Source: Bacillus sp. FJAT-22090
GTDB lineage: Bacteria; Bacillota; Bacilli; Bacillales_A; Planococcaceae
Reading direction: 5' to 3'
Length of the DNA stretch: 64,000 nucleotides
NCBI RefSeq assembly: GCF_001278755.1
Contig: NZ_CP012601.1
Coordinates: forward strand, 744,001-808,000
Under the pieces are notes generated by a model. The model was not told where the DNA came from, searched no databases, and saw only the letters and a list, made by a program, of their open reading frames with translations. Within the stretch, counting starts at the first letter, position 1; the number at the start of each line of letters is the position of its first letter. Positions 40,708 through 53,605 of the stretch are shown piece by piece. The translations under genes and the position numbers were made by a program.

Positions 40708-40766
40708 GGGTTGCTAAGGCAACTCTTTTTATTATTGAGCTAACGGGACAAGTTAGTGGAAGAGGC
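40708..40766 (+). repeat. Cassette-boundary element A
   Basis: A hairpin GGTTGC-TAAG-GCAACTC with a T5 run is followed by the 7-7-7 palindrome AGCTAAC / GGGACAA / GTTAGTG (40738-40758). It precedes the gene at 40854 by about 90 bases. Confidence 0.7.
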
Positions 40767-40853
40767 AGGGATTTTTGAAAAGAAGTAGAAGTACTTATTA
40801 TATGGAAAATTATACAAGTGTCGAGTAGGTAAATTAGAAATGGAAGTGAATCA

Positions 40854-41099
40854 ATGTTAGTTAAAGGTCATATTGTCAGTATGCCTAAGATTTATTGGGT
40901 CATATTGATTCCTATCTTCTTAGGGGTGAGTTACTATAATATTTTTTTTGATTGGGATTTGCAACACTATGGTGTAACTGAACTAGAAGATTTTGGGCTA
41001 TATGTGTTTGTCTTATGTCTAAGTTTTTGCCAATGCTTTATTTACATTTTATTTATTCGGTTAGCAGTGACTACTATAAAAAGACTTCAACATAAGTAG
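40854..41099 (+). CDS. Small membrane protein (cassette gene)
   Basis: 81 residues with two hydrophobic segments (MPKIYWVILIPIFLGVSY and LYVFVLCLSFCQCFIYIL) and a polar loop containing DWDLQHYGVTELEDF. No family recognised. ATG 40854 lies behind GGAAGTGA. It is the first unit of the repeat-bounded array. Confidence 0.6.
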   Translation: MLVKGHIVSMPKIYWVILIPIFLGVSYYNIFFDWDLQHYGVTELEDFGLYVFVLCLSFCQCFIYILFIRLAVTTIKRLQHK

Positions 41100-41168
41100 A
41101 GCTATTAGGAAAGAAGTGATCTTAGTAAACAAGAGTGTTTTTTCTACAAAAATTGGAGACTTTTTTTT

Positions 41169-41192
41169 CACGGACGGGTCGTTAGTTTAAGT
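41169..41192 (+). repeat. Degenerate cassette-boundary element B
   Basis: CGGACGGGTCGTTAGTTTAAG keeps the spacer GGGTC and right arm GTTAGTT but has lost the left arm. A T8 run stands just before it, as in the intact elements. Confidence 0.4.
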
Positions 41193-41251
41193 GTGTTGAT
41201 TAATTTTGGGTACACCCAATCCATTAAGGTTTTCCTAAAAGGAGTAAATGT

Positions 41252-41566
41252 ATGAAAAAATCTCGTAATTTCTTATTAATTATTGTTACTGCTTTAATTG
41301 GTTTTTTTATCTTATTCTATTTTTTAAATCAAAACGCTGTTATTGAATCTAAAACCGAAAACATTCAAGTAATTAGTAAAGGTAAAACTTCTGAAGAAAA
41401 GTGGATAGTCCTTTCAAATAATAATAAGATCTACATAGAAGATTTTAGTATATGGGCTTTAATTGAAGAAAATCAAAATTACACTATAGTTTATGATTTA
41501 ATGAAAAAAACAAAAAGATACAAATTAATAACTATTGTACCGGGGGATTATAATGGACAATTTTAG
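41252..41566 (+). CDS. Membrane-anchored protein of unknown function (cassette gene)
   Basis: 104 residues: an N-terminal anchor (FLLIIVTALIGFFILFYFL, about 7-25) and an extracytoplasmic beta-rich domain (IQVISKGKTSEEKWIVLS and following). No cysteine lipobox. ATG 41252 follows AAAAGGAG. Function unknown. Confidence 0.65.
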   Translation: MKKSRNFLLIIVTALIGFFILFYFLNQNAVIESKTENIQVISKGKTSEEKWIVLSNNNKIYIEDFSIWALIEENQNYTIVYDLMKKTKRYKLITIVPGDYNGQF

Positions 41567-41580
41567 GATATTAATATTTT

Positions 41581-41680
41581 TCTTATTCAACTAACGAGTG
41601 CTTTAGTGAAAGATCATAGAGTTGCTATATGCAGCTCTTTTTTCTTATTGAACTAAAGGGGCAGCTTAGCTGATGAAGGG
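41581..41680 (+). repeat. Cassette-boundary element C, complete composite
   Basis: Box 1 AACTAAC / GAGTGC / TTTAGTG (41589-41608), then hairpin GAGTTGC-TATAT-GCAGCTC with a T6 run, then box 2 AACTAAA / GGGGCAG / CTTAGCT (41651-41671). This is one of the fullest copies and shows the complete order box 1, hairpin, box 2. Confidence 0.8.
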
Positions 41681-41837
41681 ATAATTAGGGAAATATAGAA
41701 TATAAAGTGTAAGGATTATTATTTTGAACAGAAACACTATTAAAAATTTTAGTACATGGTCATATTGACAAGTTATAGAGTTGTTCAATCGATTTTTTTC
41801 CTTAGCATAGGGGGAAGGAATGAAAGGGGTATTTCAT

Positions 41838-42413
41838 TTGAAATCTAATATTCTTATCTTTGTATTTTTAACTTCACTATTATTTATCACTGGTTGTACG
41901 CTAAGTAATTCCGTACAAACATATGATACAAATAATGAAAATGTAATCAGTATATTAGACGAGAAAGTTTTAAAAATTGATGACTCAGAAGAAGAGTTTT
42001 CTTATTTAACCGACTTATCGGAAGAAGAATTAAAGTCTTATAAATTATTTACCCAGGAATATGATACAAATTATATAAAAGGTTTTTCACCAGAAAAGAT
42101 TATGCTTATATACATTCATTCAGCAGTTATAGATGATATAGAAGCAATCTATTCGTTGGTTTATATTGATGGGGAGTTACCTGATTTCGATACTTTTAAA
42201 AGAATATATTACCAAAATCTTAACATATCCAACTTGGAAATGGCTTTAGATTTCAGATATTATGACACAATCAAAATAAAACAAGAAGACAGTAATGGAT
42301 TATTAGTTGAATTAACGGTTAGTTATGGAAGGTTCACAGCTTCAACATTAATGGAATTAAAAAAAGAAAATGATATATGGAAAATTGTTCTCCCCCACTC
42401 GTTCAAAAAGTGA
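41838..42413 (+). CDS. Lipoprotein of unknown function (cassette gene)
   Basis: 191 residues. The lipobox LLFITGC places the modified cysteine near residue 20. The mature part is acidic and alpha/beta-rich, ending SYGRFTASTLMELKKE and a short tail, suggestive of an NTF2-like fold (inference). TTG 41838 is placed by AAAGGGG 8 bases upstream; the ATG at 41820 overlaps that site. Confidence 0.7.
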   Translation: MKSNILIFVFLTSLLFITGCTLSNSVQTYDTNNENVISILDEKVLKIDDSEEEFSYLTDLSEEELKSYKLFTQEYDTNYIKGFSPEKIMLIYIHSAVIDDIEAIYSLVYIDGELPDFDTFKRIYYQNLNISNLEMALDFRYYDTIKIKQEDSNGLLVELTVSYGRFTASTLMELKKENDIWKIVLPHSFKK

Positions 42414-42504
42414 GCACTTTAAGCAGCGTATTCTCTATTTTAACTTGTCTTTTCTCCATTTTATTTTCCACAAAAAAATCCCCTATGAAAATGGGGACTT
42501 GCTT

Positions 42505-43239
42505 TTATGCTTGTGATTTATGGTGGAATGGACATTTTCCTTGAATTGGCTCAATATCATCACCAATAAAGAATTGCTTCCATTCATTATGCGTCGGGTC
42601 GCCGAAGTGACCGATATCTGGATGTTTAGGCAGCTGATCCCAAGCTTCTACACGTTTACGAACTTTTTCACGTGACATTATACCGCCTTTTTCAGTTCCT
42701 TCTAATCCTTCAAATATCTTGCGAGGCTGGAATCCAAGAACCATCGCATTTCCTAAATGACGTGTCTTTCGCTTCTTATATGCAGGAGCATTTCCGAACA
42801 CGAAGATTGGCTCTCCATTGAATCGGAAATCCCATAAATAGTGTTCAGGGTCGCGAGGGCTGTCTTCCGGCCATTCAATTTCATCGACCTCATGTATGTA
42901 TTGGAGAATCTCCCAAAATTGCTTTCGATAATCTGCGAGAGAACCCTCTTGCTCAAAAGGCTCTACAAATACAAAAAGACCGTGTCTCTTATAGTTTGGT
43001 AGTTTAAATAAATCTAGAAAGCCTTCTAGTGCAAGCGGTAGATTACTCCAGTCGTCTTGATTGATATATGCATAGCGGAGCTCGCCTTTCAGTTCGCCAC
43101 TCATTCCAAAAAAACATGGAAACGTTTTATCCGTTACCGTGTTATGAAAGGTTTCGTATTCTTTATAGAGCCAACTCGGCAAGTCTTTTCTAGTATGAAA
43201 ATCTTCTTTTGTTAATAAAGCTCGTTCCTTCGTAATCAT
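42505..43239 (-). CDS. YqcI/YcgG family protein, possible heme-dependent N-hydroxylase
   Basis: 244 residues. The family (PF08892) includes GntA, a heme enzyme that N-hydroxylates a guanidino compound in guanitoxin synthesis. Visible landmarks are FPCFFGMSGELKGELRYAY, LWDFRFNGEPIFVFGNAPAY, TRHLGNAMVLGFQPR and the C-terminal GKCPFHH. ATG 43239 follows GGAGG at 7 bases; the frame from 43266 would translate that site. It is divergent from a DDAH-like gene, which acts on modified guanidino groups, so a joint role is plausible. Confidence 0.8.
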   Translation of the reverse strand: MITKERALLTKEDFHTRKDLPSWLYKEYETFHNTVTDKTFPCFFGMSGELKGELRYAYINQDDWSNLPLALEGFLDLFKLPNYKRHGLFVFVEPFEQEGSLADYRKQFWEILQYIHEVDEIEWPEDSPRDPEHYLWDFRFNGEPIFVFGNAPAYKKRKTRHLGNAMVLGFQPRKIFEGLEGTEKGGIMSREKVRKRVEAWDQLPKHPDIGHFGDPTHNEWKQFFIGDDIEPIQGKCPFHHKSQA

Positions 43240-43408
43240 ACAATCGCCTCCACTATCTTTATTCACACATCTCGTTATGTCTAGTCTTTACCCCATCCTA
43301 AATTTCCTGAAACAACGAAGTTCAAATGAAAAAAATTCACAAATAGGTTATGAAATGAAAAATCAAGGGAATAAAAAAGGAATGAATTAAGAAATTGGAG
43401 GATGACTT

Positions 43409-44263
43409 ATGGTGAAAATAATTCAAAATCAATCTAAAATAAATTGTCAAAGCGAATATGGAACACTTAAAAAAGTCGTATTATGTGAACCTCAATATAT
43501 GGAAATTAAAGAAGTGATTAATGATGTTCAAAAAAAATATATAAATGATAATATTGACCGTTCACTTGCTATTTCGCAGCATCAGATATTTGAACAAACA
43601 TTACGGAACGAAGGTGTGGAAGTGATTAAACTACGACCAAGTAAAGACCACCCTGAACAAGTCTTCACTAGAGATATTGGTTTTACTTTGGGTAATCGTT
43701 TATTTATTTCCGAAATGGCGAATCCGATTCGTAAAGGCGAAGAGAAAGTATTAGCTCATTGGATGAATGAACATGACATTTCGTATAAGAAGCTTTCAAC
43801 GCATCCCATTGAAGGTGGCGATGTAATCGTAGATGGCAATCGTGTATTTATTGGAATTAGCCATCGTACATGTATGAAAGCTATTCAAGCTTTGCAAAAT
43901 GAATTACCTGATTTTGAGATTCTACCTATACCTTTTAAACCAAATTATTTGCATCTAGACTGTGTGTTCAATATTCTTTCCACAAAAGATGCGTTGATTT
44001 ATCCCGATGCGCTCGATCCAAAAATCGTGGACCGTTTATCGAGCATGTATCATTTAATCGAAGTGAGCGAAAGTGAGCAGTTCTCAATGGGTACGAATGT
44101 GTTGTCTATTGGTCATAATCGAGTGTTTAGTTTACCAATAAATCGTGACGTGAATCATCAGCTGAGACAGCATGGATATCAAGTGTTGGAGGTCGATTTC
44201 TCGGAAATCATTAAATCAGGTGGATCATTCCGATGTTGTTCAATGCCAATTGTGCGCCATTAA
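43409..44263 (+). CDS. Dimethylarginine dimethylaminohydrolase (DDAH)-type amidinohydrolase
   Basis: 284 residues of the guanidino-modifying superfamily (DDAH, arginine deiminase). The catalytic set is visible: the acidic pair in PIEGGDVIVDG, the histidine in YLHLDCVFNIL and the nucleophilic cysteine near the end (GGSFRCCSMPI). VFTRDIGF supplies substrate contacts. The family hydrolyses substituted arginines to citrulline and an amine. ATG 43409 follows GGAGGATGA. It shares a divergent promoter region of 169 bases with the YqcI gene. Confidence 0.85.
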   Translation: MVKIIQNQSKINCQSEYGTLKKVVLCEPQYMEIKEVINDVQKKYINDNIDRSLAISQHQIFEQTLRNEGVEVIKLRPSKDHPEQVFTRDIGFTLGNRLFISEMANPIRKGEEKVLAHWMNEHDISYKKLSTHPIEGGDVIVDGNRVFIGISHRTCMKAIQALQNELPDFEILPIPFKPNYLHLDCVFNILSTKDALIYPDALDPKIVDRLSSMYHLIEVSESEQFSMGTNVLSIGHNRVFSLPINRDVNHQLRQHGYQVLEVDFSEIIKSGGSFRCCSMPIVRH

Positions 44264-44313
44264 GAAAAAAGTCAATAGCATCTTTATAGGAGACTATGCT
44301 ATTTTATGCAATG

Positions 44314-44347
44314 AAAAACCCTTTAGAATTTGTTCTAAAGGGTTTTT
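44314..44347 (+). terminator. Terminator of the DDAH-type gene
   Basis: AAAACCCTTTAGAA pairs with TTCTAAAGGGTTTT and a T-run follows. Confidence 0.9.
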
Positions 44348-44654
44348 CTGATTATTTATTCCGTTTTCTTGCTATTAATACAGTACCTATGTACCTTTAA
44401 GAATCGACATAATTACACAAATTTAGATTTAGAGAAAAACTGTCACAGGGGTAGTAAAATATAATGATAAATTACATTTGTCTGTAATTGTGAATGATCA
44501 AAATAACAAAACAAAGGTAATAGAGGAATTGCTCAATTAACAAAACCTTTTAAAAGAGAAACTAAATTGAAAATATTAAATCAGAAGCTGTAATTATAAT
44601 CAAAAATGGAATAACAAATCCAAAAGTATATTACACTAATCGTTAATTTTATAT
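44348..44654. other. Gene-free stretch with a coding remnant
   Basis: About 300 bases. Around 44445-44540 a startless frame reads VVKYNDKLHLSVIVNDQNNK then TKVIEELLN and a stop, which looks like the tail of a lost gene. TATTAATACAGTACCTATG (44372 on) recurs almost unchanged at 47759 (CTTAATACAGTACGTATG). Nothing else was seen. Confidence 0.35.
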
Positions 44655-44742
44655 TAAACAAACGGTGCTTCACTTGAAGAGTGTTGAGCTGCTTACCTGG
44701 CTCTTATTCATTGAAGTAAAAGAGAAGGTTAGTTGAACAAGA
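44655..44742 (+). repeat. Cassette-boundary element D
   Basis: Eroded box 1 AACAAAC / GGTGC / TTCACTT (44657-44675), a weakened hairpin (GAGCTGCTTACCTGGCTC), and box 2 AAGTAAA / AGAGAAG / GTTAGTT (44714-44734). It precedes the CPCC gene by 39 bases. Confidence 0.65.
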
Positions 44743-44780
44743 AAGTATGGTAAAATCAAAAAAAATATTGAGGTGATTGT

Positions 44781-45047
44781 ATGAAATACACTTGTCCTTG
44801 CTGTGGCTATAAAACATTAGATGAAGAACCGCCAAACACTTATGAAATTTGTGAAATATGTTTTTGGGAAGATGATGGTGTTCAATTTAGAGACGCTGAT
44901 TATGAAGGTGGGGCAAATGATGTTTCGTTAAGACAAGCACAACTAAACTACATTATGTTTGGGGCATGCCAAGAAGGCTCAATCGAATTTGTGAGAAAGC
45001 CGAACGAGAAAGATGTAGTAGACCCTGATTGGAAACAGTTAATTTAG
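44781..45047 (+). CDS. CPCC family cysteine-rich protein (cassette gene)
   Basis: 88 residues. The family signature is at the start: YTCPCCGYKTL and EICEICFWEDDGVQ, two CxxC pairs that likely bind zinc. GGANDVSLRQAQLNYIMFGA completes the PF14206 pattern. Members are small, widespread in accessory DNA and of unknown function. ATG 44781 follows TTGAGGTG. It is followed by a lipoprotein gene in the same unit. Confidence 0.88.
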   Translation: MKYTCPCCGYKTLDEEPPNTYEICEICFWEDDGVQFRDADYEGGANDVSLRQAQLNYIMFGACQEGSIEFVRKPNEKDVVDPDWKQLI

Positions 45048-45076
45048 AGTGTTATTAAGCCTAGGAGGAGTACATC

Positions 45077-45394
45077 GTGAAAAATAAAAAAATACTCGGT
45101 TTATCTTTTTTATTTATAAGTTTGCTATTCTTTGTCGGTTGTTCCGAGTATCAAGAAGACTTCACTTTCACAGGAACTGTTGAGGAGATAGTTGTTGAAG
45201 ATAAAATACTGGTAATGAAAGAATACGATGCACCTGAAAGTAGAAAAGAAGGAAATGTATATGAAATCCCAGTTGACAAAGTTGAAAGGTACAACGTCGG
45301 ACAAAAACTGGAAGTAACAGTCTTTTCGAATACTGATGTAGATGTTTGGGATTTGGACCATATGAAATTCGAAATAGAGGTAATTGATAACTAA
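45077..45394 (+). CDS. Small lipoprotein, DUF3221-like
   Basis: 105 residues. Lipobox LLFFVGC with the lipidated cysteine near residue 22. The mature part (FTFTGTVEEIVVEDKILVM to LEVTVFSNTDVDVWD) resembles the OB-like fold of DUF3221 lipoproteins; the family call is tentative. ATG (GTG) 45077 follows TAGGAGGAG, 30 bases after the CPCC gene. Confidence 0.7.
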   Translation: MKNKKILGLSFLFISLLFFVGCSEYQEDFTFTGTVEEIVVEDKILVMKEYDAPESRKEGNVYEIPVDKVERYNVGQKLEVTVFSNTDVDVWDLDHMKFEIEVIDN

Positions 45395-45395
45395 A

Positions 45396-45437
45396 CTCTC
45401 TTATTCATCTACCGGGATAGGTTAGTTGAAGAAGGTA
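45396..45437 (+). repeat. Cassette-boundary element E
   Basis: Box 2 only: ATCTACC / GGGATAG / GTTAGTT (45407-45427), followed by GAAGAAGG as in the other copies. It stands 2 bases behind the lipoprotein stop and 43 before the methyltransferase. Confidence 0.7.
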
Positions 45438-45479
45438 TTTCAACATTCAATAAAGAATTTGATGTAAGGGGTGAAAACA

Positions 45480-46190
45480 TTGACTAGAATTGAATTTATT
45501 CGAAATGAAGAGAAGAAATATCACGATTATTGTTACGATAACTATAAATTATTTGAAGAAGGTTCTTGGTTATACAAACCTGTAAAAACGGTAACCGATT
45601 TATTACATTTATTTGATGATAAAGAGAATGTAAAAGTTCTAGACTTAGGTTGTGGAGTCGGCAGAAATAGTATTCCGATTGCTGAAGCAATCAAGTCCAA
45701 AAACGGTAAAGTTGTCTGTGTTGATTTACTTGATTCGGCATTACTAAAATTAAGACAATATAGTAAAGAATATAAGGTTGAAGAAGTAATTCTCACGGAA
45801 AAAGCTGATATAGGTAACTATGAAATCAAAACAAACGAATATGATTTAATAGTTGCCATTTCAAGTTTAGAACACGTTCAATCAGAAGTTGCTTTAAATA
45901 AAATTATACAGCAGATGGCAGATGGTACTCAAAACAACGGAGTAAATGGTATTATCGTGAACTCTGAAGTTACAGAAATTGATGAAGAAACTAACGAGAA
46001 GTTAGATGCACTTATGGAAGTAAATCTTTCAACAGAAGATATGATTAAAAAAATCAGTAGCTTCTATACATGATGGGAACTATTCAAATCAGAAGTAAAA
46101 CCATTAGAATACAGCATTATTCGAAATGGAAAACCTGTATTGTCAAAAACCAACGCAATAACTTATGTTGTTAGAAAAAATAATGAATAG
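45480..46190 (+). pseudogene. Class I methyltransferase with an in-frame TGA (cassette gene)
   Basis: The SAM-binding motif VKVLDLGCGVGRNSIPIAEA is intact, followed by VVCVDLLDSALLKL and YDLIVAISSLEHV. Codon 198 is TGA (46071-46073); the same frame then continues for 38 sense codons (WELFKSEVKPLEYSIIRNGK, then a short tail) to TAG at 46190. FYT-stop-WELFK matches the FxxWE end strand of small methyltransferases, so the stop is most simply a nonsense mutation, perhaps GGA to TGA. The 197-residue product may still be made. TTG 45480 follows AAGGGGTG. Confidence 0.7.
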
Positions 46191-46191
46191 T

Positions 46192-46332
46192 ACTTCAACT
46201 AGTGGGCGCTTTAGTTAAACTAGAACATCACTTCGATGGACTAGTTTAATATATAAAACACCATGTAAATTTCTGTGATCAAGTGTGAAATTTTACACTT
46301 AAACTAACGGGGCAGGTTAGTGTAATAAGAAA
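46192..46332 (+). repeat. Cassette-boundary element F
   Basis: Box 1 AACTAGT / GGGCGC / TTTAGTT (46197-46216), a replaced middle with the palindrome AAGTGTGAAATTTTACACTT (46281-46300), and box 2 AACTAAC / GGGGCAG / GTTAGTG (46302-46322). Box 2 is only 33 bases before the next start codon, too little for a separate promoter. Confidence 0.75.
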
Positions 46333-46355
46333 TCGAAGAAAGGGAGAGTGAAAAA

Positions 46356-46847
46356 TTGACAACCAAATATGTGAATTGGGGAGATTCAAAAGTAAAACTA
46401 ACCTGGAAGCGTGATCCACAACTTCCTCCAAGAAAGTTAATTACAAGCGTTCACGGCATTTGTTTACAAGAAGAAAAACTACTTTTGGTTAATCTAAATC
46501 ATAGAGGGTGGGATTTTCCTGGCGGTCATATTGAACTTGAAGAAAACCCTGAAGATTGTTTAAATCGTGAAGCGTATGAAGAGGGATATGTAACGGGAAG
46601 TATCTTTCTTTTAGGTCATATTATAGTTGACCACACTGAAAACATAAAATGGGATGCAAGTAGCAATTATCCAAAGGTAGGATATCAAGTTTTTTACCGT
46701 ATGGACATTGATCGATTACATGATTTTCAAGCACAGTTTGAGTCAGCTGAAAGAATTCTTATAAATCCGGGTGAAGTAATAGAATACTATCATGATTGGA
46801 ACGAACTTTATCAAGAAATTCTTGATTATGCTTTAGTCCTAAAGTAA
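46356..46847 (+). CDS. NUDIX hydrolase with variant Nudix box (cassette gene)
   Basis: 163 residues. RGWDFPGGHIELEENPEDCL followed by NREAYEEGYV occupies the Nudix position; the end reads EEGYV instead of EExGU, shifting the glycine by one. The glutamates that hold magnesium are kept. Substrate unknown. The start is TTG 46356 behind AAAGGGAGAG. Confidence 0.82.
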   Translation: MTTKYVNWGDSKVKLTWKRDPQLPPRKLITSVHGICLQEEKLLLVNLNHRGWDFPGGHIELEENPEDCLNREAYEEGYVTGSIFLLGHIIVDHTENIKWDASSNYPKVGYQVFYRMDIDRLHDFQAQFESAERILINPGEVIEYYHDWNELYQEILDYALVLK

Positions 46848-46870
46848 TTCATTTACAACTAGCTATAGAT

Positions 46871-46932
46871 CGGGTTGCGTATGCAACTCTTTATTCTTAT
46901 TGAACTAACGTAGCAGTTTAGTTGAAGAAGGA
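46871..46932 (+). repeat. Cassette-boundary element G
   Basis: Hairpin GGGTTGC-GTAT-GCAACTC with a T-run, then box 2 AACTAAC / GTAGCAG / TTTAGTT (46903-46923) and GAAGAAGG. It starts 24 bases behind the NUDIX stop. Confidence 0.75.
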
Positions 46933-47010
46933 TATTTCTGTATCCATATAGAATTAGATACAAACTGAATGATAATCTGAGAGAGTACATTAAAAGTAGT
47001 TCCTTTAATT

Positions 47011-47040
47011 TTATTCAACTAAAGGGGGGAGTCTAAAAAT
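47011..47040 (+). repeat. Degenerate second boundary element before the CPBP gene
   Basis: TTATTCAACTAAAGGGGGGAG keeps the left arm and G-rich spacer; the right arm is lost (TCTAAAA). It suggests that a unit between 46932 and 47011 has been deleted. Confidence 0.4.
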
Positions 47041-47082
47041 ATTCTATGTAATAGAGAGATAATTAGGACAGGAGAGTTAAAA

Positions 47083-47727
47083 CTGGTAAATATAAAAAAA
47101 ATATGTTTAATTGCAATGATAGTTATGACTGCTGTTTCATTTGCAAATTTTTTAGGATTTAGTATTGCTGGGATATCAGTTATTATTGGTATTGCGTTTT
47201 TCTTTATTAATAGTAATTTGGAAAAAAATGTTTCTACTGACACTGGACTAAATGCAAAATCAATAGGAAAGTGTCTGAAAAACAAAACAATTTATTTTTG
47301 GATTGTTTTACCACTGATTTTGAATGTTGTTTGTATTGTGTTGGCAAAATTAATTTTGCCCGAATACATAGAACATCTTTATGGAAGAACGGAGTTTGTA
47401 GTTTCGTTAGATAAGATAATGTTTCTCGTCTTCCAACTTGCCATTTTAGCATTGGGTGAAGAAATTGCTTGGAGGGCTTTTTTTCAAAAGCAATTGAGTA
47501 AAGCACTACCAATAATACCTACTTTAATTGTTACATCCATAATATTTGCATTTGCTCACATTGTGGAGGGGAGTAGTATTGTAGTCGCTTATGATATTTT
47601 CTTTATCTTTATAAATAGTGTTTTATATGGTGTGATATTTTATAAAACAAACAATGCGTGGATAAGTGCTATTTCGCATTTTATTGCTAATTTATTTAGT
47701 ATTATTGTAATTTCATTTTTGTTGTGA
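47083..47727 (+). CDS. CPBP-family intramembrane protease, probable CTG start (cassette gene)
   Basis: 214 residues with six or more helices. The ABI/CPBP catalytic motifs are present: GEEIAWRAFF (EExxxR), FAFAHIVEG (FxxxH) and SHFIANLFS (HxxxN). The first ATG (47116) has no ribosome site and lies inside helix 1. CTG 47083 stands 6 bases behind AGGAGAG and adds the basic lead VNIKKICLIA. CTG initiation is therefore proposed. Members are often self-immunity or protein-modification proteases. Confidence 0.75.
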   Translation: MVNIKKICLIAMIVMTAVSFANFLGFSIAGISVIIGIAFFFINSNLEKNVSTDTGLNAKSIGKCLKNKTIYFWIVLPLILNVVCIVLAKLILPEYIEHLYGRTEFVVSLDKIMFLVFQLAILALGEEIAWRAFFQKQLSKALPIIPTLIVTSIIFAFAHIVEGSSIVVAYDIFFIFINSVLYGVIFYKTNNAWISAISHFIANLFSIIVISFLL

Positions 47728-47805
47728 TGTGACTTTAAGATCTTTTTGCTGGTCATATTCTTAATACAGTACGTATGATATATTAAGTTTAATATTAACA
47801 ATCGG

Positions 47806-47882
47806 AGGGCGTTGATCCAAGAAGGGATTGAGGCTCTTTTTGTTGAACTTATTGAACTAATGGGACAGGTTTGTTGTATAAG
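47806..47882 (+). repeat. Cassette-boundary element H
   Basis: A hairpin-like lead (GGGCGTTGATCC, GGGATTGAGGCTC) with a T5 run, then box 2 AACTAAT / GGGACAG / GTTTGTT (47855-47875). It precedes the HAD gene by 62 bases. Confidence 0.7.
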
Positions 47883-47943
47883 TTTTTTAAATAAAATATC
47901 AAAATACAGAAAAAAATAATATCGCTTATAAAGGAGGATTAAA

Positions 47944-48627
47944 ATGAATCAAACAAAAAATGAAGTGAAAGTAATTTTCTTTGATGCTGGTGGTGTTCTT
48001 TTTGATACTTTTTTAAAAGGAGATGACAGAATAAGGTATATATTGCTGGAAAGAGGTTATCAAAAATCAAAAATTGATGTTGCTATTATGAAGGCAAAAC
48101 AAATTAAACTGACTTTCATTTCGAATTGGAATGAGGAAGAACAATACTATAAGCGTTATTATGGAACTATTGCAAAAGAGCTTGGAGAAATTGAACTAAC
48201 AAATGAATTATTCTTATTTACCCATTTTGCTGGTCACTGTGAGCTGTTTCCAGAAGTAAAAGGGTTGCTTGAGGAATTAAGTAAAGAGTACAGATTAGCT
48301 GTTATTTCGAATGCAATGCCAAGTATGGACTGGATATTTGATAGGTTAGGAATTCGTAAATATTTTGATTCTATTATTCTTTCTGCCTTTGTAAAAGAAG
48401 AAAAACCAGGAGAAGCAATCTATAATATCGCGCTTAATCATGCAAAAGCGATAAAAGAAGAAAGTATATTTATAGATGACAAAATTGAAAATATTGAAGG
48501 AGCCGAACGAGTTGGGATAAGAGGAATTCACTTAGATAGAAATCGGGTGAATTTGTTAGAATTGCTAAGTGAACAACAGCTTATCCAAAATACCATTAAA
48601 AATTTTAAGAATGAAATTACAAACTAA
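47944..48627 (+). CDS. HAD-superfamily hydrolase (cassette gene)
   Basis: 227 residues. IFFDAGGVLFDTF is motif I with Gly in place of the second Asp, as in YihX-like HAD proteins; AVISNAMPS is motif II, KEEKPGEAIYNIAL motif III and IFIDDKIENIEGAERVG motif IV. Probably a phosphatase; substrate unknown. ATG 47944 follows AAAGGAGG. Confidence 0.82.
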   Translation: MNQTKNEVKVIFFDAGGVLFDTFLKGDDRIRYILLERGYQKSKIDVAIMKAKQIKLTFISNWNEEEQYYKRYYGTIAKELGEIELTNELFLFTHFAGHCELFPEVKGLLEELSKEYRLAVISNAMPSMDWIFDRLGIRKYFDSIILSAFVKEEKPGEAIYNIALNHAKAIKEESIFIDDKIENIEGAERVGIRGIHLDRNRVNLLELLSEQQLIQNTIKNFKNEITN

Positions 48628-48789
48628 CCTGATTTAAATACCATGAAAAGAAGGTTCTTCAAAAAAAGAAAAATGACAATATAAAAAAAGACCCTACTCA
48701 AACGGTAAAAAAAGAGGAGAGCGTTAATTTCAGTAGATTGGATTAAGGTCAATTTTAGTATTGTCACGTCTTTACCATTTTCATTCTCT

Positions 48790-48850
48790 GAGGTGCAGCA
48801 AATATATTGTGCTGCATGGATGGCTAACGGGTCAGGTTAGTTGAGAAAGG
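48790..48850 (+). repeat. Cassette-boundary element I
   Basis: Hairpin GTGCAGCA with TGCTGCA, then box 2 GGCTAAC / GGGTCAG / GTTAGTT (48822-48842) and GAGAAAGG. The GNAT gene starts 49 bases later. Confidence 0.75.
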
Positions 48851-48898
48851 TATTTATAGAGAACTAATAAATATGCAGATTGAAAGGGTGATTGTATA

Positions 48899-49666
48899 TT
48901 GTCTCAAATTTCGATGGTGGAAAACCTTTTAAAAGATTCATTTAAAGTAATTAATGGCATGCCTCAATATATTGGGATAGAAGAGAGAGAGAAAACAGAA
49001 TATAACCATAATAACTGGAAAGATAAGATAAATACTTTAAATGACTTTGCTATAAAGCATAAGCTTAACAGAATTAGTGCTTTAATTAATAGATCTTCGG
49101 AACACTATTTGAGTCTTTCACAAATGCTAATTAACTTCGGATTTGAAAAGTATGCTTCAAAAGTTGAAGTATTAAGAGACTTAAAAGATATTAATAACAA
49201 TAAAAAGGGATATGAATGGTATTCATTAAGTGACTATAAAATATCTGAAGATGAATTTAAGAGGATTTGGGAGAAATGTATGTATGGGTCTGAAAACTCT
49301 CCAACTTCATTTACAATGGATGAACATCTAGACTCTTTGAAAAATGAAATAGGGGAGAATTGGAGTAAATCTTGTAATGTCATTTACTTGGAAGACAAAC
49401 TCATTGGTATATCTATCCCTCACATAGAAAGTGGCACTGTATATGAAGGAAGGTTATATTATTTCGGAATTTTACCTGAAGAGCGAGGGAAAGGACATAG
49501 TATACATATACACTATCAGTCCATGAATTTATTAAAGCAAATGGGAGCGAACTATTACATAGGAATTACACATGAGACCAATAAAAAAATGCAGAAAGTA
49601 TTTTTAAAAAATAAGTGTTCAATAAAGGCCAAAACAGAATCCTATTATAAATATATAATTAATTAA
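48899..49666 (+). CDS. GNAT-family N-acetyltransferase (cassette gene)
   Basis: 255 residues. The acetyl-CoA loop is in FGILPEERGKGHSIHIHYQ (R-G-K-G) in the C-terminal half, followed by NKKMQKVFLKNKCSIK; the N-terminal half is a second, degenerate lobe. TTG 48899 stands behind AAAGGGTG. The acceptor is unknown. Confidence 0.78.
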   Translation: MSQISMVENLLKDSFKVINGMPQYIGIEEREKTEYNHNNWKDKINTLNDFAIKHKLNRISALINRSSEHYLSLSQMLINFGFEKYASKVEVLRDLKDINNNKKGYEWYSLSDYKISEDEFKRIWEKCMYGSENSPTSFTMDEHLDSLKNEIGENWSKSCNVIYLEDKLIGISIPHIESGTVYEGRLYYFGILPEERGKGHSIHIHYQSMNLLKQMGANYYIGITHETNKKMQKVFLKNKCSIKAKTESYYKYIIN

Positions 49667-49722
49667 TTCATTGATTATTAAACTACCATGAAAATAAATT
49701 TCTTCAAGAAAAGAAAAATGAC

Positions 49723-49813
49723 ACTTGAACTAACGGGTGCTTTAGTTGAAGAACAGTGATTTGCAATGCAGCTCTTTTCTCTTAATCAATTAAAGGGACA
49801 ATTTAGTACAATA
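49723..49813 (+). repeat. Cassette-boundary element J, complete composite
   Basis: Box 1 AACTAAC / GGGTGC / TTTAGTT (49728-49747), hairpin TTTGCAATGCAGCTC with T-run, then box 2 AATTAAA / GGGACAA / TTTAGTA (49788-49808). The order matches element C. Confidence 0.8.
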
Positions 49814-49939
49814 TGCAGGTATATTTGGAAAGAGTGATGAAGTATTTATTATGCGGTAAATATTATAAGAAATAATATATATAAATTTACTAACTAATGA
49901 TGGTTTATTATCCAAGTAAGCCATAAAGGAGGGTTAGCT

Positions 49940-50383
49940 ATTTTCCAAATCAATAGTAGAAATTTAACGTTTTCGTTATTGATTTATTTTTGTTTAATAA
50001 CAATACTTTTACTTTTAACACTGAAAACCAACTTCAATTTGACTGGTTATAATTACTACTTGAATGAAGAATCGATGATACTAACGATTGAAGAAGGGTT
50101 TGTAAAAAAAGAAAAGTACAATGTGCAAGGTACTGCAATTCAAGCTATAAAAGTTATGTTACCAATTAACCAAGCAAATGAGATGTGGAAACTTAACATT
50201 TATTTACTCTCGCTTTTTATAACAGTCTTTTTTGTATTATTTTTGAAACCTTTGAGACCGAAGAAAAACTTGAAAATGTATATTGCATTATATTTTTTAT
50301 TCCTTATCACCTTTATTATTTGGGATATATACGTTCACAAAGAAATAATTGAAGAAATAACAAATACTATAAATAGTTTATAA
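49940..50383 (+). CDS. Membrane protein of unknown function, probable ATT start (cassette gene)
   Basis: 147 residues with three hydrophobic segments (about 14-30, 84-102 and 114-130) and an extracytoplasmic loop with ILTIEEGFVKKEKYNV. The frame has a TTG at 49979 without ribosome site. ATT 49940 lies 6 bases behind AAAGGAGGG and gives MFQINSRNLTFSLLIYF, so ATT initiation is likely. No family recognised. Confidence 0.6.
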   Translation: MFQINSRNLTFSLLIYFCLITILLLLTLKTNFNLTGYNYYLNEESMILTIEEGFVKKEKYNVQGTAIQAIKVMLPINQANEMWKLNIYLLSLFITVFFVLFLKPLRPKKNLKMYIALYFLFLITFIIWDIYVHKEIIEEITNTINSL

Positions 50384-50454
50384 AGATAGGATGACATTTG
50401 TTAGAAAATAAGCTTATATAATGATTCGAAATATGAATGTAGCCAGTTAGTTAT

Positions 50455-50494
50455 TTTCTTGTTCAACTAACGGGACAGGTTAGTTATACAAGGA
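50455..50494 (+). repeat. Cassette-boundary element K (consensus box 2)
   Basis: AACTAAC / GGGACAG / GTTAGTT (50465-50485), a perfect 7-7-7 palindrome and the best single copy in the window. LysE gene starts 123 bases later. Confidence 0.8.
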
Positions 50495-50607
50495 GATATA
50501 ACCCCTTGAATAGATTGAATATTATTACATTTAGTAATATAATAGTAGAATTAAACGGAGAATAAAACGGAAAAATAAAAGAAAGTAAAAGTTAATGAGG
50601 GTTTTAT

Positions 50608-51243
50608 TTGTTTGTACTATTTTTGACATATGTTTTACTTGGACTTTCTATTGCTCTCCCTATTGGTACAGTTACAATAGAAATGACAAAACAAGGTCTT
50701 AAAAACGGATTTATGCATGGATGGATTGTCGGTCTTGGAGGAATGACGATTGATTTAGGTTTGATTTTACTTCTTTATTTCGGCTTAGCTTCTGTACTAT
50801 CCATGCCCATTGTTCAAATTACGATGTGGTTGGTAGGTGCTTTATTCTTATTTTTTATTGGCTATGATAGCATAAAAACTGCTGACCATAATATCTCAGT
50901 AGCAGGAGAAAAGTCAACAAAATCACTGAAGTCTTCTTACTTTAATGGGTTACTTGTAGCTATATCACCTGGTAATTTAGTCTTTTGGGTAAGTATTTTT
51001 GGTACAGTATTAGCGGACTCGTTCGATTCATCCAATACCTTTAAATTCCTTATTGTTGGTGCAGGAATACTTACAGGAATTCTTATTCATGACATAGTTT
51101 TAATGACAATTGTTGCAGGTACGAGAAAGGTACTAAATCCTACATATATCAAATGGGTTTCTATTTTAACTGGACTTGTATTAATAGGATTTGGTATAAA
51201 ATTTCTTTTTGAATTTTATAAAAGTATTCAAGGAGCTTTTTAA
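50608..51243 (+). CDS. LysE/RhtB-family amino acid exporter (cassette gene)
   Basis: 211 residues, six helices. The start GLSIALPIGTVTIEMTKQGL and AISPGNLVFWVSIFG (the GN-xxxFW type repeat) are typical of LysE translocators. Export of amino acids or their analogues is expected. TTG 50608 lies 6 bases behind GAGGG. A bidirectional terminator follows. Confidence 0.85.
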   Translation: MFVLFLTYVLLGLSIALPIGTVTIEMTKQGLKNGFMHGWIVGLGGMTIDLGLILLLYFGLASVLSMPIVQITMWLVGALFLFFIGYDSIKTADHNISVAGEKSTKSLKSSYFNGLLVAISPGNLVFWVSIFGTVLADSFDSSNTFKFLIVGAGILTGILIHDIVLMTIVAGTRKVLNPTYIKWVSILTGLVLIGFGIKFLFEFYKSIQGAF

Positions 51244-51307
51244 TGAAAGAATAAGTGTTATAGGAGATATTTTCACCAAAAACATGGACAAATTTTTTTT
51301 GTAATAA

Positions 51308-51341
51308 AGAAGGACCATTCCTCATTTGGAATGGTCCTTTA
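51308..51341. terminator. Bidirectional terminator between LysE and HpaB-like genes
   Basis: AAGGACCATTCC pairs perfectly with GGAATGGTCCTT; T/A-rich flanks on both sides. Confidence 0.9.
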
Positions 51342-51360
51342 AGTCAATAATGAATTACTG

Positions 51361-52812
51361 TTACTCTTCATTTTTTAAATTTAAGAAATTACTAATTACC
51401 TTTACATATTCATTTTTGGGATATTTCTTATATAGATCGCTAGCTAATCGAATTGGGTCACCAAAAAAGTATCGCTCATATTGGGTTTGTCTTGTTCCGA
51501 ATGCACTCATTGTTAGATCCCAAGCTAAACGAAATATTTTTACACGTTCCTCAGCGGTCTTAGTTGCTCCTTGAAGATAAAAATCTAAGTCATTTCTAAC
51601 AATAGAATGGAATGCTTTTTCGGTTGGCAATGTAATCATTCCACTAGCTCCAATTAACTGGATAATTTCAGTGAAACGAGGATAAATTTTAGGAAAAATG
51701 TTACCAGCAACTTGAAGCGGGAAAATTTCTGGACGCATATATCCCCATTCATCTAATTTTGCGTTATTCTCTGATTTTTCTAACAAGGCTTTCATCGTCT
51801 CTAGACCAATGATGATTTCTGACATCTTTTCTTGAATATGTTGATACTCGCTAATATTAATCGTTTCGATAAGAAGCTCAGCAATACCTAAGATAAACTC
51901 TGTTTTTACAATTTGTCTAATCAATACTTGGTGCTTAGTAAAGGGATGGAAAGAGCTTTGAATTGGGAATTGCTCAGCTACTTCTGCATTGTTGTAATAA
52001 AATACTCTATTCCAAGGTACTAACACATTGTCAAAGACAACGATAGAATCCATTTCTTCGAACCGCGAACTTAATGGATAATTAAAAGAAGATTGTCCGC
52101 CGATGAACGTGTCCCTACAAATAAACTTTAATCCTTTTGTGTTAGAAGGGATCGAAAAAGCAAAAGCTTCATCTTCATTAAATAGAAATTTACCTACGCT
52201 AAAAACTAATACTTCATCTGTTAATCCACCTTGTGTAGCAAGAAGACGGGCACCTTTAACGATAATTCCTTCTTCATTTTGATCAATTACTTTTGCTGCG
52301 ATTGGCTCATCCGTATTTTCATAGTAGATATAAGAACGATTCACTTGTGGAGAAATAAAGGTATGTGCAAACGACAGATCATTTTCCCTAGCAAATTCAT
52401 AAAATGTTTGCAGATTGTTTGGAAAACATTTGTCCTTATTATTTAAAAAGGATACGGAAGAGGCGAAGCTCATTAAAACAGTGTTCAAATAATCTGGGCT
52501 TCTTCCCATGATTCCCCCTGAATACCTAGCCCAATGTTTAATCATCTTTCGTCTTCTTATTAAGTCATCTTTCGTTTTTGGTTGCAAATAGGAAAGACCA
52601 ATAAGCTCTCCTGATACTGGGGAAATAAAAGTCATCTCATCTTTTATTTTTGGGTCATGTTGCAAATCATAAAGATTCGCTTTGGACTGAATTAGTCCCT
52701 TGAAGACAGGTTGTTCAGATAGCAACCCCTCCATTTTTTCACCGTCATACCAAATTTCATTGTTTAGCTGATTTAATCTGTTAATGAAATCTTTTCCATT
52801 AATAGCCCCCAT
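51361..52812 (-). CDS. 4-hydroxyphenylacetate 3-hydroxylase family protein (HpaB/YoaI-like)
   Basis: 483 residues, the full length of the FADH2-dependent oxygenase component. FISPVSGELIGLSYLQPKT, YWARYSGGIMGRSPDYLNTV, CRDTFIGGQSSFNYPLSSRF and FDNVLVPWNRVFYY follow the family order. It would hydroxylate a phenol such as 4-hydroxyphenylacetate using reduced flavin from a separate reductase, which is not nearby. ATG 52812 follows GGGGAGTG. It is the only long minus-strand gene inside the array. Confidence 0.9.
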   Translation of the reverse strand: MGAINGKDFINRLNQLNNEIWYDGEKMEGLLSEQPVFKGLIQSKANLYDLQHDPKIKDEMTFISPVSGELIGLSYLQPKTKDDLIRRRKMIKHWARYSGGIMGRSPDYLNTVLMSFASSVSFLNNKDKCFPNNLQTFYEFARENDLSFAHTFISPQVNRSYIYYENTDEPIAAKVIDQNEEGIIVKGARLLATQGGLTDEVLVFSVGKFLFNEDEAFAFSIPSNTKGLKFICRDTFIGGQSSFNYPLSSRFEEMDSIVVFDNVLVPWNRVFYYNNAEVAEQFPIQSSFHPFTKHQVLIRQIVKTEFILGIAELLIETINISEYQHIQEKMSEIIIGLETMKALLEKSENNAKLDEWGYMRPEIFPLQVAGNIFPKIYPRFTEIIQLIGASGMITLPTEKAFHSIVRNDLDFYLQGATKTAEERVKIFRLAWDLTMSAFGTRQTQYERYFFGDPIRLASDLYKKYPKNEYVKVISNFLNLKNEE

Positions 52813-52940
52813 GTTGCACTCCCCACTTTAATCGATATTTATATAAAATCATTCGATTATAGCTGTATTAACAAGTTAAGCCGTCAAATATCTATAGCTA
52901 TTACTATAATTATTTTATGTAACTAGAGCATGCTATTATT

Positions 52941-52982
52941 ACTTCGTCAACTAATGGAGCAGGTTAGGTCAATAAGAGGATT
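52941..52982 (+). repeat. Cassette-boundary element L
   Basis: Box 2 AACTAAT / GGAGCAG / GTTAGGT (52949-52969), followed by CAATAAGAGGA. The DnaB/DnaD-like gene begins 45 bases later. Confidence 0.75.
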
Positions 52983-53026
52983 TACTGGATTATGAGATAA
53001 TACAACTGGATTAAAGGAGGAAAGGA

Positions 53027-53605
53027 ATGACTAAAGATAAAAAACGACATATAAAAATATACCGTATAGCAAACGAAGAACGATATGAAGAAGTAATGGA
53101 AATGACAACAGAAGCATGGAATGCAAAACTTGAAGAAAAAAATAAGGTTAAAACAGGGAAGATAATAGATAAAAAACGAAGGAAAAAAGAACAAGGGAAA
53201 GTAATACATGGGAAGACACCAGAAGAACGATTTCAAGAAATAAACGGAATGACAATAGAGGAATGGCACGAAGAACAATTCAAAGCTAAAATGGGAATGA
53301 CAACCAATGATTGGTATATAAAACAGGTTAAATCATCATCACCAATTGACTATTTTAAAATACAGAACAGTACAATTACAGAGGAAGATGTAAAGCTTGT
53401 TAAGGATTTGCAGGAGTTAGGATTAAATGATGACGTGATAAATGTTTTACTAAGTTACGTTGTAGTTGTTAGTAAAATTGGACTCATTCACCCATTGATT
53501 AAAGAAATGGGTGAATATTGGATTGAAAAAAATTTATTAACTGTTGAGAAGGCAATTGTCTTTGTTAGGGAAGAACATAAGAAGTACAAAGAGTCCTCAG
53601 AGTAA
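53027..53605 (+). CDS. DnaB/DnaD-domain-like protein with internal MT-W repeats (cassette gene)
   Basis: 192 residues. The C-terminal 65 (LGLNDDVINVLLSYVVVV, then HPLIKEMGEYWIEKNLLTVE and AIVFVREEHKKYK) follow the layout of the DnaB_2 domain of Firmicute replication-initiation proteins, with LxxxMxxxW in place of YxxxIxxxW. The N-terminal half is basic and holds three copies of a short motif: EMTTEAW, GMTIEEW and GMTTNDW. No ATPase domain. ATG 53027 follows AAAGGAGG. A DNA-binding or replication-related role is inferred from the domain only. Confidence 0.6.
   Translation: MTKDKKRHIKIYRIANEERYEEVMEMTTEAWNAKLEEKNKVKTGKIIDKKRRKKEQGKVIHGKTPEERFQEINGMTIEEWHEEQFKAKMGMTTNDWYIKQVKSSSPIDYFKIQNSTITEEDVKLVKDLQELGLNDDVINVLLSYVVVVSKIGLIHPLIKEMGEYWIEKNLLTVEKAIVFVREEHKKYKESSE

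Follow-up and report, generated by a model that had tools for sequence, protein, structure and literature searches.

A palindromic element recurs along a 64-kb stretch of the Bacillus sp. FJAT-22090 chromosome (positions 744001–808000 of a genome that is a single contig of 4.21 Mb; hereafter, the window), with unrelated genes between its copies. Here we propose that, in all likelihood, Bacillales possess a platform for recombining gene cassettes that functions like a (super)integron and uses an Xer-derived integrase, and that this element is its core site. At the level of sequence comparison, we demonstrate the sites and their oriented array, crossover steps at the borders of the units, reshuffled neighbours, an attI-like stretch, a match between integrase clade and array orientation, the co-occurrence of sites and integrases, and copies on plasmids. 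A first-pass annotation of the window had suggested a recombination site that shifts unrelated genes singly, in the manner of an integron, and comparison supports that suggestion. Beyond it lie the findings that there are two site types, that terminator-like mini-units alternate with the genes, that an attI-like site is present and that the integrase is Xer-like and not IntI.

Two site types in a long oriented array

A profile built from the whole array recovers each of the 11 full copies that the first-pass annotation had placed in the window, all on the + strand, as 36-bp sites scoring 16.9–49.1 bits; we refer to these as type B. The arm-7-arm architecture described there is correct, and the conserved arms extend beyond 7 bases to about 13–14 bp around a GNNGCAG spacer. 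A sister type, A (AACTAAC-GGGTGCT-TTAGTT, with the 7-bp spacer GGGTGCT), occurs three times on the same strand, starting at 41583, 46191 and 49722. Two decayed copies had also been proposed: the one near 47011 retains its left half-site (47003–47027, repeat family D3), and the one near 41169 falls below 6 bits with the site profile. The same profile gave no match above 12 bits in one simulated 640-kb Markov strand, and a bare 20-mer with up to three mismatches is found six times in the window compared with none across 100 window shuffles. A search of Rfam with the 38–56-kb part of the window returned two weak matches only (E 0.65 and 0.8).

The window sites are the beginning of an array that spans about 0.5 Mb of this Psychrobacillus-like chromosome, with 280 B and 230 A sites detected by an iterated profile over 720–1360 kb. 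The two types mostly alternate, giving the order gene–terminator–gene–terminator; classified by start and end type, there are 188 B-to-A, 187 A-to-B, 78 B-to-B and 36 A-to-A units. Units that start at B are gene units. Their longest open reading frame (ORF) lies on the site strand in 204 of 234 cases and on the opposite strand in 24, the remaining 6 having no ORF of at least 50 amino acids (aa), and the ORF begins at a median of 84 nucleotides (nt) past the crossover. In the window, plus-strand genes begin about 25–200 bases past the sites, much as had been noted. Two of the labels given earlier to the window cargo fail against Pfam (E ≤ 0.001 or the family cut-off): the 255-aa ORF labelled GNAT has no Pfam match, and the DnaB_2 label scores 20.9 bits against a cut-off of 22. 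No cargo family dominates the 130 ORFs scanned across the array (of 193 counted), GNAT and NUDIX being the commonest, and PADLOC found four families with eight matches in the array cargo. Among the same 130 ORFs, three contain an integrase-core (rve) transposase domain, two match APH phosphotransferases and one a beta-lactamase family; these functions are predicted only.

Units that start at A and are shorter than 200 bp have size peaks at 45–65 and 100–109 bp. TTTTT is present in 81% of 169 such units and AAAAA in 8%, their longest ORF has a median length of 12 aa (n = 169), and they fold slightly more stably than shuffled sequences (median z −1.5, n = 80). Terminator-like sites are enriched in the window array (12 compared with 4.8 expected). 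Judged from their sequence, the mini-units may end transcription. Promoter-like sites are not enriched there in a consensus scan (54 compared with 60.1 expected), and the idea that each cassette brings its own promoter was rejected for lack of such an excess.

Neighbours change at the sites

The first-pass annotation had pointed out that an unvarying gene order between strains, together with copies of the element before core genes in both orientations, would indicate a regulatory or neutral repeat. We paired full-length gene units of at least 80% identity; the 65 pairs, less five counted twice through overlapping loci, left 60 pairs from 52 gene families, 14 of them internal to this genome. 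Both neighbours differ in 48 of the 60, one differs in 10 and neither in 2. Among 121 looser homologous pairs the following unit is also homologous in three, and among pairs at least 93% identical (overlapping loci still included) the left flank is the same in 9 of 38 and the right flank in 10 of 38.

Identity profiles over 53 left-different and 53 right-different pairs place the change at the site. At the left border, identity is at background at −17, −14, −11 and −2 (0.36, 0.36, 0.26 and 0.34) but clearly exceeds it at +5, +12 and +15 (0.74, 0.72 and 0.91). The right border is above background at −14 and −11 (0.58 and 0.77) and at background from +8 (0.32, 0.32 and 0.23 at +8, +11 and +14), with the exception of +17. 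Judged from these alignments, homologous units keep the sequence between two sites, and the step to background lies around the 7-bp spacer. Ten pairs were chosen for closer reading among cassettes that this genome carries twice or that two genomes share; in most of them, identity at the left end starts at GCAG and the sequences are unrelated before CTAAC, with two free bases between. At the right end of the chosen pairs, identity stops within the next site, after which a different terminator unit follows or, as in 918242 compared with 1000221, another gene directly; some pairs share part of a terminator unit or carry small-indel shifts there. The right-hand class is the same in only 11 of the 60 pairs (expected fraction 0.17), which shows that genes and terminator units are not linked. 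A junctions that follow gene units have a spacer beginning with GGG in 156 of 188 cases. The start of the B-junction spacer is variable and differs even between 99%-identical copies, as if bases 2 and 3 were resolved anew by each exchange; a two-base heterology in the overlap seems to be tolerated.

These borders bear on two explanations that need no dedicated recombinase. Hundreds of similar 36-bp copies, together with similar terminator stretches, could recombine with one another, so that neutral interspersed repeats would be reshuffled with their cassettes by RecA-type homologous recombination among several hundred copies. We judge this very improbable: crossovers should then be smeared across the 36 bp, yet −11, −14 and −17 are at background, +5, +12 and +15 are linked to the gene and the right border mirrors this, and neither the integrase-linked attI-like site nor the match between integrase clade and array orientation described below would be explained. 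Alternatively, the genes could be immobile and the A–terminator–B stretch could be a regulatory repeat, or one resembling a miniature inverted-repeat transposable element (MITE), inserted after them. The recurrence of mini-units of about 45–65 and 100–109 bp, their T runs and the excess of terminator-like sites fit such an element, but 78 gene units end at a B site without any mini-unit, the same gene is found with different mini-units or none, switching at the crossover, with the right-hand class rarely shared, and gene units occur in different places with both flanks changed in 48 of 60 pairs. A repeat moving into conserved gene order, the pattern expected of a MITE or neutral repeat, was not found, and this account has very little left to recommend it.

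Xer-like integrases of two clades

As the first-pass annotation had stated, the window itself holds no integrase: no PF00589 member lies inside it. A tyrosine recombinase had been suggested as something to look for near such arrays; three are encoded elsewhere in the same array, and relatives adjoin arrays in many Bacillales. The genome has 19 matches to the tyrosine-recombinase family, 15 of them over the cut-off. The array integrases, 94–95% alike, are encoded at 959, 1002 (truncated at its N terminus) and 1283 kb, within the array or on its margin, and all run against its direction. The protein is about 281 aa long and scores 219.9 bits with the XerA model NF040815 (cut-off 220). The predicted structure, of moderate confidence (mean predicted local distance difference test score 73, predicted template-modelling score 0.48), has a helical N-terminal and a catalytic domain. 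All 28 relatives compared share R140, K164, H230 and Y265, and R233 and H256 are kept in at least 90%. With the catalytic residues kept, two predicted domains and no arm-binding domain, the integrase has the features of a simple Xer-like tyrosine recombinase, as far as sequence and model indicate.

An integron of the classical kind, built on attC sites and a divergent form of IntI, would also present a divergent integrase, an attI-like site and mostly single-gene cassettes in one orientation. It is nonetheless an exceedingly improbable description of this locus, given that the array integrase scores 88.3 bits with the integron-integrase model TIGR02249 (cut-off 265) and lies just under the XerA cut-off, that its nearest solved chains are XerC-like and XerD, with IntI4 aligned over 69 residues only, and that the crossovers on either side of the terminator unit fall at sites of simple arm-7-arm form.

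A scan of named genomes yielded 98 integrase relatives, of which 80, at 78 loci, were kept; hosts include Psychrobacillus, Sporosarcina, Lysinibacillus, Paenisporosarcina, Viridibacillus, Neobacillus, Domibacillus, Peribacillus and Cytobacillus. Clades were assigned by sequence alone, each locus taking the clade of its best match among seven reference integrases; this covered 59 of the 78 loci (19 were left out). At the 41 clade-1 loci, 540 of 558 sites run in the direction opposite to that of the integrase, and a B site lies on the opposite strand at 98–109 nt in 30 loci. At the 15 clade-2 loci, 134 of 146 sites are co-oriented with the integrase, and an A site lies at 97–113 nt in six; upstream of the integrase, clade-2 examples such as L126, L130, L131, L145 and others are the mirror image of the clade found in this genome. 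In a tree of 44 rows, which leaves out 14 truncated or frameshifted integrases, the orientation classes form two clades with support of 99/97 (31 rows) and 98/99 (7 rows). Because of this, the two integrase lineages seem to be matched to opposite array ends; they are probably also matched to the two site classes.

Across 21 closely related clade-1 loci, the 70 nt on the integrase side are 0.90 identical, and this attI-like stretch ends at the B core, 71–74 nt from the integrase start codon. Beyond the core, aligned identity is 0.60 (highest 0.71) compared with 0.57 for random sequence, an aligned comparison that supersedes an ungapped one (0.63 compared with 0.31). In 11 clade-2 loci, identity on the integrase side is 0.75 as far as an A-like core, which was located by a lax pattern that allows three mismatches, and 0.59 beyond it.

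A tandem of three tyrosine recombinase genes (L077, L078 and L083), whose open frames measure 513, 376 and 318 aa, lies near the array end at 1290502–1294132 and resembles a recombinase-in-trio element.

Distribution and replication polarity

At least one B match is present in 137 of 250 genomes of the family, compared with 0–3 matches per genome and strand for a backward control pattern, and integrase relatives (E ≤ 1e-60) are present in 66 of the 250. The 37 genomes with a clade-1 copy or piece have a median of 41 sites, and 36 of them have at least five; the 29 with only more distant integrases have a median of one site (nine with at least five), and the 184 with no integrase match have a median of zero. 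Clade 1 is found in 25 of the 30 genomes with at least 30 sites. Site number is associated with clade-1 presence (p = 3e-21, or 1e-14 without the genus of this strain), although these p values should not be taken at face value because the species are related. An order-level genome search returned only matches from the same family and so adds no wider range. Among 50,697 phage records seven match the B site, and in six of these the match covers less than 80% of the query.

This co-occurrence bears on whether the sites, although real, are recombined by the host XerC/XerD or by another integrase, with the in-array integrase merely riding along. The 19 tyrosine-recombinase matches in the genome, which include two high-scoring Xer-like proteins at 1666 and 1830 kb, provide candidates, and some site-rich genomes lack a detected clade-1 integrase. 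We nevertheless consider this very improbable: the attI-like sequence, its distance and the array orientation all track the integrase clade, site numbers track clade-1 presence, and the dif-like site of the genome differs in sequence from the A and B sites, to which it is unrelated, and occurs once.

The site orientation follows replication. The first-pass annotation had raised the prospect of sites in both orientations, which are rare: 499 of the 510 sites in the 640-kb stretch point along replication. With dnaA at 3.19 Mb and the single dif-like site at 1242099–1242126, the array orientation flips at the latter, from 422 + and 10 − sites on its left to 77 − and 1 + on its right. In this genome, 100 of the 100 B matches listed (111 in all) are on the leading strand. 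The same holds for 48 of 50 listed (81 in all) in the relative G015 and for 97 of 100 listed (107 in all) in the relative G012, in which the terminus was placed at the orientation flip because no dif was found. The sites thus run from origin to terminus, which may reflect insertion polarity, co-orientation of the genes or a need of the reaction.

Resistance genes on plasmids

A literal search for the site in the literature matched chloramphenicol-gene primers; in the matched parts of three papers (PMC3609815, PMC4403831 and PMC2440758), these are primers for the cat gene of pC194, a gene used in laboratory constructs. On pC194 (928–1835), cat is flanked by a B site (37.8 bits) and an A site (38.9 bits) that are co-oriented, the gene itself being on the opposite strand. 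On pKKS627 (936–1537), a pair of B sites (42.4 and 47.4 bits) encloses the trimethoprim gene dfrK, and in an Enterococcus faecalis record (992–1572) dfrD has an 84% sequence match to the B site just upstream. By their flanks, cat, dfrK and dfrD look like cassettes of this system. Across 72,556 plasmid records, the B site has matches in 76, and seven records encode an integrase relative (E ≤ 1e-50). On Sporosarcina psychrophila pSP10-266k, the integrase adjoins nine opposite-strand sites, in an array that holds the mercury-resistance pair merR–merA and an IS110 transposase gene. Plasmids or DNA uptake may carry cassettes between cells.

A model for cassette exchange

In the mechanism that we propose, an Xer-derived solo tyrosine recombinase of about 281 aa would bind two inverted arms of about 13–14 bp and exchange strands within or beside the 7-bp spacer, so that gene units between sites could be excised or inserted. 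New cassettes would enter at the attI-like B site, the core of which lies about 70 nt upstream of the divergent integrase gene. B forms the left border of gene units and A that of the short terminator-like units; clade-2 integrases lie at the other array end, with the array pointing towards them and an A-type attI in some loci. Exchange of A with A and of B with B would maintain the alternation, with B–B and A–A neighbours as exceptions. We infer that each site class recombines mainly with its own kind; the in-array integrase is the probable catalyst, and double-stranded circles the presumed intermediate. The arms of a site derive from two units, a gene unit has a crossover point at either border, and the attI-like site is simple. 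The simplest reading would be conventional tyrosine recombination at a double-stranded arm-7-arm site.

Several observations weigh against this model. Recombination as such is something that we infer from comparison. Sites with and without an extra cassette, a contrast that the first-pass annotation had recommended looking for, were sought in a comparison that skipped same-strand pairs within one source, and a single doubtful case was found; a recount that included such pairs gave the three of 121 pairs with a homologous following unit mentioned above. Some identity persists beyond the step, at −18 on the left (0.74 compared with 0.59) and at +17 on the right (0.60 compared with 0.35). B spacer positions 2–3 follow the unit on neither side, a behaviour not expected of a simple single-point exchange. 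The two site classes are not strictly separate, because 78 gene units reach a B site directly, without a terminator unit, and there are 36 A–A neighbours. Eleven of the 41 clade-1 loci lack the expected B site (one scores as A), and nine of the 15 clade-2 loci have no A site at the expected place; three close integrase relatives (L125, L128 and L133, 62–63%) have one nearby site between them. Finally, 31 of the 184 genomes without an integrase match still have at least five sites, and five genomes with at least 30 sites have no detected clade-1 integrase; sites without an integrase could be due to decay, draft gaps or the 1e-60 cut-off.

Features of the window

The sites, units and ORFs of the window are listed in Table 1. 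In the unit at 50474..52958, the points at which blastn homology with two relatives stops (52940 and 52954) lie on the right site or just within it. The YqcI_YcgG and DDAH-like pair (window 42457–44267) is found at 86–92% identity in nine loci of the same genus with different flanks, whose 1.5-kb flanking sequences do not match the window; the pair lies inside a larger unit, and no site was detected at its own ends.

Table 1 Sites, units and ORFs of the array in the window (window coordinates)
Feature	Position	Strand	Details
B-type site, first of array in this genome stretch	40732..40767	+	Profile 33.7 bits
Gene unit B-A	40747..41598	+	ORFs 40854-41099 and 41252-41566, both without Pfam match
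A-type site, gene/terminator junction	41583..41618	+	38.5 bits
Terminator-like mini-unit, 62 bp	41598..41660	+	Stem-loop plus T run 41618-41638
B-type site	41645..41680	+	36.5 bits
Composite gene unit B-B	41660..44723	+	Three ORFs
Lipoprotein-like ORF, in unit 41660..44723	41838-42413		No Pfam match
YqcI_YcgG ORF, in unit 41660..44723	42505-43266	-	
DDAH/arginine-deiminase-like ORF, in unit 41660..44723	43409-44263		
B-type site	44708..44743	+	30.4 bits
Gene unit B-B	44723..45416	+	Cys_rich_CPCC 44781-45047 (Pfam 115.1 bits); 105-aa ORF 45077-45394
B-type site	45401..45436	+	31.4 bits
Gene unit B-A	45416..46206	+	SAM methyltransferase ORF 45471-46073 (Pfam)
A-type site	46191..46226	+	36.4 bits
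Terminator-like mini-unit, 105-bp size class	46206..46311	+	
B-type site	46296..46331	+	48.0 bits
Gene unit B-B	46311..46912	+	NUDIX 46356-46847 (Pfam); stem-loop 46872-46889
B-type site	46897..46932	+	49.1 bits
Gene unit B-B	46912..47864	+	CPBP/Rce1-like protease, scanned as 47086-47724 (Pfam 57.8 bits); left half-site 47003-47027 inside
B-type site	47849..47884	+	29.0 bits
Gene unit B-B	47864..48831	+	HAD hydrolase 47944-48627 (Pfam 64.1 bits)
B-type site	48816..48851	+	16.9 bits
Gene unit B-A	48831..49737	+	255-aa ORF 48899-49666, no Pfam match at E ≤ 0.001
A-type site, exact AACTAACGGGTGCTTTAGTTG	49722..49757	+	43.8 bits
Terminator-like mini-unit, 60 bp	49737..49797	+	
B-type site, degenerate	49782..49817	+	17.5 bits
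Gene unit B-B	49797..50474	+	134-aa ORF 49979-50383, no Pfam match
B-type site	50459..50494	+	38.9 bits
Gene unit B-B	50474..52958	+	LysE transporter 50608-51243; HpaB-type hydroxylase 51361-52812 (-) (Pfam)
B-type site, last of window	52943..52978	+	35.0 bits; then ORF 53027-53605, DnaB_2-like, below cut-off

Comparison with known systems

In Gram-negative bacteria the textbook platform for gene capture is the integron, whose attC sites (R''-L''...L'-R', with the core motif GTTRRRY) are recombined as folded single strands and whose integrase, IntI, has a specific insertion in its catalytic domain. Like chromosomal (super)integrons, the system described here has a divergent integrase with an adjoining attI-like site (30 of 41 clade-1 loci; 0.90 compared with 0.60 identity in 21 loci), a long one-orientation array of mostly single-gene cassettes with varied cargo that appear, by comparison, to be exchanged at a conserved core, and arrays without a detected integrase. 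Unlike them, it relies on sites of simple arm-7-arm form, in two classes that alternate with terminator-like units, and on two integrase clades at opposite ends. The core GTTAGTT does not fit GTTRRRY, and one A-to-B example can fold on either strand; by model scores and nearest solved chains, the integrase is not of the IntI type. The system therefore works like an integron yet is not classed as one, because its integrase does not score as IntI and its sites do not seem to resemble attC.

Plasmid dif (pdif) sites alternate in orientation. XerC/XerD–pdif modules resemble this system in that genes are bounded by Xer-type sites, fall into two module classes and are shuffled; C and D module classes and module shuffling feature in the part of a report on the dif modules of Acinetobacter plasmids that bears on this (PMC13141974). 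Here, by contrast, 499 of 510 sites share one orientation per replichore, dedicated integrases with attI-like sites accompany chromosomal arrays of hundreds of sites, and the site is not a dif-like 11-6-11 site, the dif-like site of the genome being a different sequence. Simple tyrosine recombinases, for which one survey distinguishes in its relevant section an Xer subgroup, IntI, TnpA and other classes (PMC8138268), share the length of about 281 aa, the helical N-terminal and catalytic domains and the catalytic residues; the integrases described here differ in forming their own clades, separated by a long branch from host Xer proteins and tied to cassette arrays. The cassettes of pC194-type plasmids show abrupt junctions, with pC194 cat lying between a B and an A site. 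In the portion of PMC5703833 concerned with them, abrupt module junctions in small staphylococcal rolling-circle plasmids are attributed to single-stranded DNA and homologous or illegitimate recombination, an explanation that, in that portion, does not invoke these sites.

Among the matches listed in the open-licence PubMed Central literature, judged by title and the start of the abstract and with preprints outside the scope, none describes this system, and a description elsewhere is possible. For Firmicutes, the pertinent section of the IntegronFinder 2.0 paper gives one complete integron (Limnochorda) and a few integrase-less arrays (PMC9024848). We see the scales as evenly balanced on the fullest version of our proposal: that Bacillales have a second integron-like system, independent of IntI/attC, in which two integrase clades with matched, largely separate B and A classes stand at opposite array ends, genes and terminators are exchanged as alternating modules, arrays of several hundred cassettes are oriented towards the terminus, and cat (pC194), dfrK and dfrD on staphylococcal and enterococcal plasmids have their source. 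Given an oriented array of swappable genes with dedicated Xer-type integrases, Gram-positive soil bacteria do seem to own an integron-like gene-capture system. A separate system of the same logic, common in soil Bacillales, would fill the integron gap in Firmicutes, and, if true, would explain through site-specific exchange why some Gram-positive resistance genes, including pC194 cat, have abrupt borders, while offering two natural sets of simple directional recombination sites.

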